Assembly: GCF_001625215.2 (NCBI RefSeq)
Contig: NC_030389.2
Location: forward strand, 1,524,930-1,588,929
Direction: 5' to 3'
From: Daucus carota subsp. sativus
Taxonomy: Eukaryota > Streptophyta > Magnoliopsida > Apiales > Apiaceae
DNA length: 64,000 nt
Below the pieces are notes generated by a model. That model was not told the origin of the DNA. It searched no databases and saw only the letters and a program-made list of their open reading frames with translations. Shown piece after piece: positions 46,385 to 53,458 of this stretch. Both the position numbers and the translations under genes were made by a program. Numbering within the stretch: the stretch's first letter is position 1; the number at the start of each line of letters is the position of its first letter.

Positions 46385-47399
46385 TTAGAAATAGAAGCAG
46401 AAGTTGTGATGTCAAAGTCGATATAAATAACTTTTCGAATTGTGCTAAACTTTTCTTCGTTTGGTTTATTTTTGCGCAAAAGTTCAAGAATATGCAGAAA
46501 ACGCAGGTAAACTGGCATTCTCTAGTATACTTATCTACAATTTTGTGCCTATATAGTCTGGAGTAAAAATAAATGATGTGTAGTACTAGACTTCAGATGC
46601 TGCCAATTGTCAGCAGCTGCATCTTTAATTAATATCATTAGTCATTAGCATCAAACGACATCCATCCGTTATAGTTTTGCGATATCAAGAAACTGGGAGC
46701 CAAAAGTGTTGTTTAGTAAATATGCACTATGCTGAAGATGACTTGTGAGAGTGTGTTTGCACAAGTAGTAATCACGAGTTTCTAGTTCATAAAAAATTCT
46801 GATGGAACTTGTTTACAGTGTTCGGAGTAACCTGCAATTGTCATATTCTTCTTCTTATCTACTTCTATATATTAAAGGAGAACCAGGGGCAAAAAGAGCA
46901 AAAATAATACCTGTGAATTTCCGTATATACCCTCGGTTTTTACAGAATTTTGATCATACCCTCAACTATTATACCGGATTATACCCATGTTTTCTAGACC
47001 CGAATAGTAGCCTGATCGTTTTTAGCTCAATACTCCTCATTTTCTTCACGATCTATAATAGTTTCTCAGTATGTATATTGTCATGATGTTTGGTTTAGCA
47101 TAAGTATTCTTGTGACCCACGATTTCTGTTTTGTGATGGGTTGCCTATCGTAGATTGGGTCGCAGAGAAAAGGGATTGAACAATATCAATTGGGTTTACG
47201 AGGCACACCATTCTTCCAATGGATGGTTTCCCTAAAAAACTTGGCAGGAGAAGTTGTACCTGATCAAAGACATTCGATATTTAAAGCGAGGGATAATCTT
47301 GTGTTTCTGAAACGCTGGTTCTTCAATTTTCCTTTACAATCATATCATCCACTGTTTTCTGTGTAAGAGATTAAAATGATTAACCGGCTATATTTTCAG

Positions 47400-48164
47400 T
47401 GCCACAGTGGGGGGTATACTAGACAGAGCCATTGAAGCAGAGGGCTGAAAGCATGGAGATTTTATAAGGCTGGTAAGGTTTTGTAGCCTATGTATTATTA
47501 TTTTCTTCTTCTGTATTACTCAGTGTTGTTTTCATCATTTCCTGCTTAAACTTCCAAATGTGCAGGATCAAGTTTCAAATTGTTGTCCTGGCTTATTAGG
47601 CACAAATCACTTGATTATTTTGTTGATAAGGAGCTGGAGGAAATGATCAGAATAAAATATTATGACGCACTCCATTCCCCGTTCAAGAATGAAACCAATT
47701 AAGATGTTGACAAACATCTTTTCTCAATTTAAGCCTAATTTTTACTCCCTCCGTCCCACCAGGTTCTTTACGTTACTTTTCGGCACGCATTTTAAGACTC
47801 TTATAAAATATAGTTCTATAATGTGTTTTTTTATAAAAAAAATCCTGAAAAAAAGTTTGAGGTTTAAACTTTTATTCAAAAAAAAATAATTTAAAAAAAC
47901 GTTATTGAACTATACTTTATAAGAGCCTCAAAATGCGTGCAAACAGTGAACGTAAGCTTCCTGCTGGGACGGAGGGAGTATCTGTTAACAAGAACAAGTG
48001 AATTCAATTTATATGTAGATTATGTAGGTAAGTGGTTATGCCATACTTCTATTTTTGTAACTTGCTATCCTCTAACTCGAGCTTCATTTCATTACCTTGC
48101 AGCAACAGAAAAAGCCCAGAATATATATTGGATGCATGAAGTCTGGTCCAGTCCTTGCCCAAAA
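47400..48164 (+). pseudogene. Captured beta-1,3-galactosyltransferase (GT31) fragments
   Basis: Two exon-like islands with intact splice signals. At 47400-47472 the codons read ATVGGILDRAIEAEG, a stop, then KHGDFIRL. At 48103-48164 they read QQKKPRIYIGCMKSGPVLAQ. Both are signature segments of plant GT31 beta-1,3-galactosyltransferases. The intervening exon with the DDD motif was not found, and the first island has an in-frame TGA. A Stowaway element lies between them. Confidence 0.8.
47745..47978. mobile_element. Stowaway MITE inside the Helitron
   Basis: Inverted termini CTCCCTCCGTCCCACCAGG and CTGGGACGGAGGGAG are flanked by TA. The AT-rich palindromic interior resembles the intact Stowaway at 28105. 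It inserted into the Helitron or was already in the captured intron. Confidence 0.92.
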
Positions 48165-48349
48165 GTAAGTCTATTTGTAAGCTAAACATCTTTAGATTTT
48201 TCTTATTTTCTTATACAAGTATATGGGTGAAAGGTTTCTAATATTAAAATCAAATTATTAATCCTAATATAGTAGATGCCAGTAGTCTTAGCTATAAAAA
48301 GCAAAGTTAAATACATCTACTGATTAAAACTGTTAAGTTTTAAAGGTCT

Positions 48350-48732
48350 CGCAAGGACTACTGCAGTAGAATCTGACCGGATTGTCGGTGAGTTTCTGCA
48401 GCAGTTGTAGGAAAAATATGTAAAGGGTGAAATTGAAGATATATTAGGGGAAGTTGCATGGACTAGGGGTCCAAATGCGATACAGTGAGTTCTTGTTTAC
48501 TTAAGATTGCAATTAAATCCCAAATAACTTGTTTGACCACTTCACTGGTAGGACATTGGACAAAACTATATCAAATTATGGAGTAAGGCTCGCTGCAGCT
48601 AGAGCAGCGCAGGACTCTATTTTAAGTGGTTCTCCGGAACCAGCAGTTTATATGTATACAGTACTATACCAAATTGCCAAATATAGCAGCAGTTTAGGTG
48701 GACACCTGTTTATAGCATGTGCTGGATGGTAA
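48350..48732 (+). pseudogene. Captured fragment of unknown coding sequence
   Basis: Two islands have plausible splice sites. One (about 48350-48487) reads TTAVESDRIVGEFLQQL, a stop, then KGEIEDILGEVAWTRGPNAI. The other (48550-48729) reads SNYGVRLAAARAAQDSIL and YMYTVLYQIAKYSSSLGGHL. The even codon quality suggests a real source gene, but I do not recognise the family. Confidence 0.4.
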
Positions 48733-48862
48733 GTTTGTCACCTTCTTTTCCTATGCTAACTCTATACATGATACATTTTATAAAAATAGAAATGTACGTT
48801 TTATTTCGAGCTTAAATATCAACAGCGTTTGTATTTGGACCTCCATTTTACTTTTCTTCTAG

Positions 48863-48963
48863 CAATGTTCAATGCTGGCAGTATCATCAGTAGATTCACC
48901 AGGACTGCTGATGAACTCTTTGGCATGTTGATTGTTTTTCTATTCATCCAACAGGCCATCAAA
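48863..48963 (+). pseudogene. Captured boron/anion transporter (BOR-like) exon fragment
   Basis: The exon after the acceptor TTCTAG reads AMFNAGSIISRFTRTADELF followed by GMLIVFLFIQQAIK. This is the RFTR...ELFGMLI...LFxQQAIK segment of plant BOR boron transporters. Only this one exon is present, fused to the next fragment. Confidence 0.65.
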
Positions 48964-52330: not shown

Positions 52331-52331
52331 A

Positions 52332-52548
52332 CTCCCTGTGCCCCCTGAATTGTATACAACTGTACACGACACTCATTTTAATACTCTCTTAAAATATAGT
52401 TTTATAACTTATTTTTAAGATTTCTTTTTTTTTTTTAAAATCCAAATTTGACATATAAATTTTTATTGAGAAAAAAAAAATTTAAAAATAAACATTAAAG
52501 TGCGTACCGAGCAGTGAAAAAATGTATAGAAATGAGTAAGGAGTGAGT
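52332..52548. mobile_element. Degenerate Stowaway MITE inside the Helitron
   Basis: Left ACTCCCTGTGCCCCCTGAAT and right AATGAGTAAGGAGTGAGTAT are eroded Stowaway termini. The interior has the AAAATATAGTTTTATAACTT and GCAGTGAAAAA phrases of the family. Confidence 0.6.
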
Positions 52549-53429
52549 ATATTTGTTTTTAATTTTTATATATACTTACGATTACGTTATAAAAATAATA
52601 TTTTAAAATTAAAAAAATAGCAACTAAACATCATTTTTACTGGTTTATTCCACTTAACGACCGCTTAAGCAGCTTAATTTTAAACAATACTTTTCCCCCG
52701 CTTAGTACAAAAGCTAAGCATTTACGCGTAGTTTCAGTCTAGCCGACAACTTACTTGGTTGCTTAAGACGCTTTCCAGAGAGTGACAAATTGATATTTAA
52801 TTTCAAATTTAAAACTTAATCAAAAATTTGTGTATTAGTGTCATCACAATCATTCTTTTTTTTTTTTTAGTAATACTTGTCAAATTCAGGATTTGTATTT
52901 CTATTTCAAATAGTCATTCTATAAATCTATAATAAAACACTCTTTATTACTTCACGATAAACTTTGTGCAAGGAATATATGTGGTTTTAATTATATATTA
53001 AGGTCGAATTTAGATATACACATATGTTCAATTTGATTGTGTTGGTCGTTATGTTTGAATTGATCTCACTGATTTTTTTAGTCGATTAACTAGCTTTGTT
53101 TTATATTGGTTTAAGTTTTACGAAAACCCCTTTTGTATTTGACATTTTGCAGATATGTATCTTTTAAATAGAAGATTATCAAATATATTCATATCCCAGA
53201 TATTTCTGCTCGTAGAACATGCATGATATTTGGGTGTTCAATATAATAGTGGTTTTAATCCAACTTTTATTATAAAAAATGGATTTATAAAAAATTGAGT
53301 GAAATATTATAAATTATAATGCATATAAAAGATACAGTTGAAATAATGAAATATTATTCTTTAATGTTTTAATAATTAAAAAATTATTTAAATTATTTTA
53401 TAAAATATTAATTTCGATATAATATACAG

Positions 53430-53446
53430 CCCGTGCCTTGCACGGG
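53430..53446 (+). terminator. Helitron 3' hairpin
   Basis: CCCGTGC, loop CTT, GCACGGG: a perfect 7-bp GC-rich stem 8 bases before the terminal CTAG. This is the Helitron rolling-circle termination signal. Confidence 0.93.
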
Positions 53447-53458
53447 TTTTTACGCTAG

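Follow-up and report, generated by a model that had tools for sequence, protein, structure and literature searches.

The stretch between positions 46858 and 53458 of the window is almost certainly a non-autonomous, gene-fragment-carrying Helitron that belongs to a multicopy carrot family. The window is the whole 64,000-nucleotide stretch of carrot DNA that was analyzed (C9:1524930-1588929), and its own assembly (441,086,747 bases in 11 contigs) was the genome searched. The first bases of the Helitron, from 46858, are TCTACTTCTATATATTAAAGGAG and its last, up to 53458, are GCCCGTGCCTTGCACGGGTTTTTACGCTAG, with A as the flanking base on the left and T on the right (Table 1). The left junction (46857/46858) reads TTCTTCTTA followed directly by TCTACTTCTATATATTAAAGG, and the right junction (53458/53459) reads GCCCGTGCCTTGCACGGGTTTTTACGCTAG followed by TTTTTTGATCAATTTAG. 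Both the element and the right flank start with T, so the sequence fixes the boundaries to within 1 bp; targeting between A and T places them at these two junctions. The 7-bp Watson-Crick core of the 3' hairpin stops 12 nt short of the end of the element, and folding with RNA parameters gave a stem of 8 bp closed by a 3-nt loop (-13.4 kcal/mol).

The features that define Helitrons were found together, namely a 5' TC, a 3' CTRR with a hairpin ~10-15 nt upstream, insertion between A and T without target duplication, absence of terminal inverted repeats, and multiple copies with common ends. No terminal inverted repeats occurred among the 25 longest of the 63 inverted repeats listed, and the sequences read at the two ends are not complementary to each other. 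Neither terminus was found a second time in the window. The ends are not a chance occurrence, since the same two recur across the genome, and the TC...hairpin-CTAG termini given in a preliminary description of this DNA were confirmed on both sides. A plasmid-collection search, a tRNA scan, and an Rfam scan of the window all came back empty.

TABLE 1 Features of the carrot Helitron, its insertion site, and complete family members (positions in the window)
Feature	Position	Strand	Details
PPR ORFs, three in tandem	34768-36648, 43617-45167, 60644-62599		Stop-to-stop 627, 517, and 652 codons
Paralogous empty site, unit 1	38517..38560	+	Uninterrupted sequence
Left flank, downstream of PPR unit-2 ORF	45171..46857	+	Homologous in pieces to 36652-38536
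Non-autonomous Helitron	46858..53458	+	6,601 bp; TC...hairpin-CTAG; no target duplication; empty sites and C6 copy
Conserved family 5' end	46858..46970	+	~113 bp; genome matches to first 300 bp
GT31 beta-1,3-galactosyltransferase fragment	47398..47472	+	P0130 residues 150-174, one stop; tblastn E 4.5e-9, 88%
Nested MITE	47745..47978		TA duplication; absent from C6 copy; filled and empty site read; inverted repeat
GT31 fragment	48097..48165	+	P0130 residues 222-244; tblastn 83%
GT31 fragment with introns	48168..48635	+	Includes P0130 residues 7-85 (tblastn); 90.2% to C7:33998301-33998784
Boron-transporter (BOR/HCO3_cotransp) fragment with intron	48635..48969	+	92.6% to C1:40829876 region
Captured fragment, dinucleotide-binding exon	48963..49110	+	90.4% to C1:2177091-2177246
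Nested MITE	49465..49851		TAA duplication; absent from C6 copy; filled and empty site read; inverted repeat
3' terminus	53429..53458	+	7-bp Watson-Crick core stem, 3-nt loop, 8-nt spacer, CTAG
Right flank	53459..53658	+	Homologous to unit 1 38537-38731
Complete elements elsewhere (BLAST ends)			L010 7,154 bp; L012 7,361; L013 7,400; L014 9,188; L016 6,392; L017 6,369
L058			5,519 bp; chosen since both ends in match lists; compared by terminal patterns only

The Helitron was inserted ~1.7 kb downstream of the ORF of the second of three tandem PPR units, and both other units examined, 1 and 3, are empty at the Helitron site. Comparison with a paralogous empty site is an established method in the part of the literature consulted. 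As the preliminary description had it, unit 1 keeps the uninterrupted target, seen at ~38524-38550 and reading ...TTCTTCTTATTTTTTAATCAATTTAG, and deletion of the element rejoins the unit-2 flanks: CTTCTTA then runs directly into TTTTTTGATCAATTTAG, the corresponding unit 1 sequence being CTTCTTATTTTTTAATCAATTTAG. Unit 1 and the joined flank are homologous and align gaplessly at the junction, in one BLAST piece (626 columns, 89%) that covers both sides and whose 13 gap openings all lie away from the junction. Homology to unit 1 extends ~200 bp beyond the right end of the Helitron, to near 53658. Unit 3 begins at ~60.67 kb and continues past the end of the window, so that its site was read in the fetched continuation (L009), where left-flank homology stops at base 1066 and right-flank homology resumes at 1701. 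Only 635 bp lie between the two, and therefore unit 3 holds no 6.6-kb element; those 635 bp contain other insertions around a recognizable version of the target site, placed by eye. A protein search with the unit-1 PPR protein returned no near-identical entry, the nearest carrot proteins being 58 and 72% identical.

Divergence among the units varies by segment, from 0.06 to 0.23. Between units 1 and 2, K2P was 0.062 (675 sites) and 0.061 (464 sites) left of the insertion and 0.152 (191 sites) right of it. Coding dS was 0.228 for units 1 and 2, 0.231 for units 1 and 3, and 0.1145 for units 2 and 3, and the corresponding values of downstream K were 0.063, 0.118, and 0.112. Because coding dS is lowest for units 2 and 3 and downstream K is lowest for units 1 and 2, the units look recombined, and the array has probably undergone recombination or gene conversion. 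With an array of this kind, relative order alone can be given, in which the empty site comes first, followed by the Helitron and then by the nested MITEs. An absolute insertion date was dropped, as the units look recombined and no carrot rate was applied; the preliminary description had called the element dated, which is too strong for an order of events. Its statement that insertion after the unit duplication was proven stands as the likeliest reading, with unit 3 also empty, while the word itself overstates what can be drawn from units that look recombined.

One alternative, which we consider unlikely, is that the element was polymorphic at the site before the units duplicated, or that later gene conversion emptied unit 1, so that presence in unit 2 would be no timer. 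The discordance between coding dS and downstream K among units 1-3 would fit such a history, as would the right-flank K of 0.152 versus 0.061 on the left; however, unit 3 is empty too, and for any Helitron insertion the site without the element is the ancestral one. Given the empty unit 3, simple insertion after duplication is much the likeliest reading. It is highly improbable that unit 1, and unit 3 with it, formerly held the Helitron and lost it by precise excision: although a vacant-site band for a maize B73 Helitron was ascribed by its authors to possible somatic excision or DNA contamination (PMC2267711, in the excerpt available), two independent excisions would be required here, and the unit 1 site bears no footprint.

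Two further insertions lie near the Helitron. The unit-2 left flank contains a MITE at 46086-46384 with a TTA duplication, which is absent from units 1 and 3 and gives a second paralogous empty site in this flank; we take it to be PIF/Harbinger-like. A short way to the right of the Helitron is an LTR retrotransposon (53744-58379) whose 915-bp LTRs are mutually identical, with GTGTT on both sides. It has what we assume to be a primer-binding-site-like motif, TTGGCGCCGTCTGTGGG, on the minus strand, and the minus-strand frames of its interior gave no Pfam domain; the element is probably very young and non-autonomous.

Across the carrot genome, the first 300 bp of the Helitron had at least 41 matches including the window, 37 of which start at base 1; of the other four, two start at base 3 and one at base 5, and the last continues a neighboring match (lower bounds, 40 of 191 first-look candidates having been scored). 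Further copies of the 3' end, which the preliminary description proposed to look for, were also present: the last 150 bp had 27 matches including the window, 24 reaching the last base, one ending 1 base earlier, and two falling short, among them L021, which breaks off within the hairpin. The termini are the same in the copies, and with the homology between the joined unit-2 flank and unit 1, neither of the outcomes that the preliminary description named as refuting it was observed. A hairpin with CTAG (24) or CTAA (1) was legible in 25 of the 27 3' matches at up to 7 edits, with T as the next base in each of the 25. The 7-bp stem is perfect in 21 of these ends, L026 keeping it by way of a pair changed on both sides, and four have one mismatched or wobble pair.

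Nine loci (L010-L018, ranking 2 to 10 by score among the 41 5'-end matches) were fetched with up to 10 kb each, and in six of them BLAST placed the 3' end where expected (L010, L012, L013, L014, L016, and L017). No 3' end was found by BLAST within up to 10 kb in L011, L015, and L018, and some members of the family are therefore truncated, longer, or equipped with another end. Eight elements, the window copy and L058 included, had both ends read, and the base on the right is T in every one, with A on the left in seven and T in L010. What L012, L013, L014, L016, and L017 share with the window copy is chiefly terminal, ~110-190 bp on the 5' side and ~30 bp on the 3' side (BLAST, E<=1e-4), with L017 additionally matching element bases 326-391. 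L016 contains a chaperonin-60 fragment (PF00118, 3.2e-12). The pieces shared by the two loci L013 and L014 are 99-100% identical, suggesting recent movement. In L014 (C6:25171000-25180999), element bases 1985-8073 consist of a ~2-kb unit repeated in tandem ~3 times at >99% identity, and L013 has parts of this unit in a different arrangement. The right flank of L017, directly after the 3' end, starts TTTCTATATATTAAAAGAGAACC and matches the family 5' end from base 6, which reads as a head-to-tail arrangement. Among the titles of the Helitron papers listed, none names the present family. A curated carrot Helitron library exists, according to the portion of PMC10581907 seen, and may already include this family.

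Among these loci, L010 (on the minus strand of C6) is a genuine second copy: its match to the window element is collinear over bases 1 to 6601, interrupted by insertions in one copy or the other and by a single stretch that does not match (element bases 226-325). Uninterrupted sequence is legible in the C6 copy at both nested MITE sites; the first MITE is presumably Stowaway-like, from its ends, and the second presumably PIF/Harbinger-like, from its duplication. The C6 copy has insertions of its own, ~0.37 and ~0.83 kb long (L010 element bases 4110-4478 and 4739-5572), which the window copy lacks, and the ends of the former resemble, by eye, those of an insertion in unit 3. A degenerate stretch in the 3' part of the window Helitron (52367-52491) is 77% identical to window positions 28191-28311 and looks Stowaway-like by eye.

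The two copies differ unevenly along their length. At the ends (element bases 1-225, 4797-5032, and 5041-6601), 144 of 1,963 sites differ (7.3%), versus 110 of 3,784 (2.9%) in the body (326-885, 1124-2587, and 2997-4797); the odds ratio is 2.64 (Fisher p 6e-14), for a split that was picked after the per-segment values had been seen and that leaves out stretches without a counterpart. The contrast persists after sites near gaps are dropped. Over a ~450-bp 3'-terminal stretch, the window and C6 copies are mutually nearest among the three compared. Such a pattern might mean, as a tentative and rather doubtful reading, that the ends do not share the history of the gene-fragment body, the body having been recently exchanged between resident copies. 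Exchange by template switching or gene conversion would make the body a cassette that moves between Helitron end-pairs. A duller alternative is faster mutation of the AT-rich 3' part, which alone does not account for the 5' 225 bp, where G+C is equal to that of the body. That the 6.6 kb consist of two insertions, abutting or nested, whose ends were borrowed would also fit the unequal divergence, yet it has very little chance of being correct, as order and outer ends are alike in the C6 copy and neither terminus was found elsewhere in the window.

Within the body, fragments of three host genes follow one another (Table 1). A search of window positions 48520-49060 against the genome yielded 11 matches, by which the query falls into three adjoining modules, GT31, BOR, and FAD, at element bases 1311-1778, 1778-2112, and 2106-2253. 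Besides the two Helitron copies, the best sources were a GT31 locus at C7:33998301, a BOR locus at C1:40829876, and an FAD oxidoreductase locus at C1:2177143, with module identities of 90.2, 92.6, and 90.4%, intron sequence counted in. The modules overlap at their junctions by 1 bp and by 4 to 7 bp. At an identity of 90-93%, the source-like loci may represent paralogues of the genes actually captured. The BOR-like locus has a further PF00955 match ~1.3-1.5 kb onward on the same strand and thus looks like a gene and not another capture.

Individual fragments were identified to varying degrees. A 22-residue exon of the fragment at 48097..48165 matches GT31 galactosyltransferases, with PF01762 in all 59 of the database candidates (best E 6e-4). 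Along the element, carrot P0130 appears in the order of residues 150-174, 222-244, 7-57, and 57-85, and therefore the GT31 pieces do not follow the order of the gene. The PDB search with forward frame 1 hit Boron transporter 1 (phmmer, E 1.6e-11) in two stretches in order, and forward frames 2 and 3 gave no PDB match at E<=5; the PF00955 match of the boron-transporter fragment (6.2e-5, 22.3 bits) is under the Pfam cut-off of 27. The fragment at 48963..49110 probably derives from an FAD-dependent oxidoreductase, its FAD-family Pfam matches being weak and under cut-off. Against Pfam, ten small exon pieces gave PF00955 and weak FAD-type matches and nothing more. A protein search with the GT31/BOR chimeric exon found nothing at E<=0.001 among 23 candidates, probably because the exon spans two genes.

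A six-frame search of the element gave no Pfam family at E<=1, and hence neither a Rep (HUH) nor a Pif1-type helicase was detected; the element is therefore non-autonomous. PF14214 (Helitron_like_N) has at least 168 matches in the genome, and the autonomous Rep/Hel partner proposed in the preliminary description has a candidate in the region from C3:37537697 onward, with a 5' end related to that of the window Helitron (79% over bases 1-282 and 86% over 326-400). Unlike the window element, it carries Rep/helicase ORFs, which lie on the same strand as the 5' end (Helitron_like_N, 7.3e-39, 12 kb downstream of that end; PIF1, 2.1e-88). Neither the terminus pattern at up to 7 edits over 24.8 kb nor a scan for a perfect hairpin with CTA[GA]T from base 18,000 located its 3' end, so this is a candidate helper lineage and not a proven one.

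In the mechanism we envisage, a Rep/Hel protein acting in trans would nick at the 5' TC, and a single strand would be peeled off and copied by rolling circle until the 3' hairpin and CTAG bring copying to an end; the new copy would be joined into a site between A and T. The host fragments would have been gained one after another, probably through read-through past the terminator or template switching during repair at microhomologies of 1-7 bp. The window copy would then have landed downstream of the PPR unit-2 ORF, and the MITEs would have entered later.

The element belongs to a well-known class, of which it is a tidy but unremarkable example. Plant Helitrons are described in the part of PMC2267711 seen as having TC/CTAG ends, a 16-20 bp palindrome 10-15 bp from the 3' end, and A/T flanks, and Helitron gene capture has been described in maize (PMC2575219, in part). 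With maize HelA-type and Pack-Helitrons, the carrot element shares the ends, the palindrome, the A/T flanks, and the presence of several gene fragments per element; it differs from them in its nested MITEs and apparently in its 5' and 3' terminal sequences.

Outside the Helitron family itself, the best genome match to PF12014, a domain that we take to be carried by EXECUTER1-type proteins, is at C7:38992106 (L066). No family end was found in this 3,255-bp locus, and the nearest family member among the matches listed is L013, ~81 kb away. L066 is perhaps the carrot Y2 candidate gene, DCAR_730022, for which a 17-kb Helitron insertion is reported in the part of PMC10581907 seen. That Helitron and the one in the window share species and class.

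A fully bounded carrot Helitron with traceable captures, source-like loci, and a candidate helper can be used to calibrate Helitron annotation, and the element is useful for studying how captured fragments get stitched together. Carrot Helitrons are already of interest, one having been reported in the Y2 color candidate gene (PMC10581907, in the same part).
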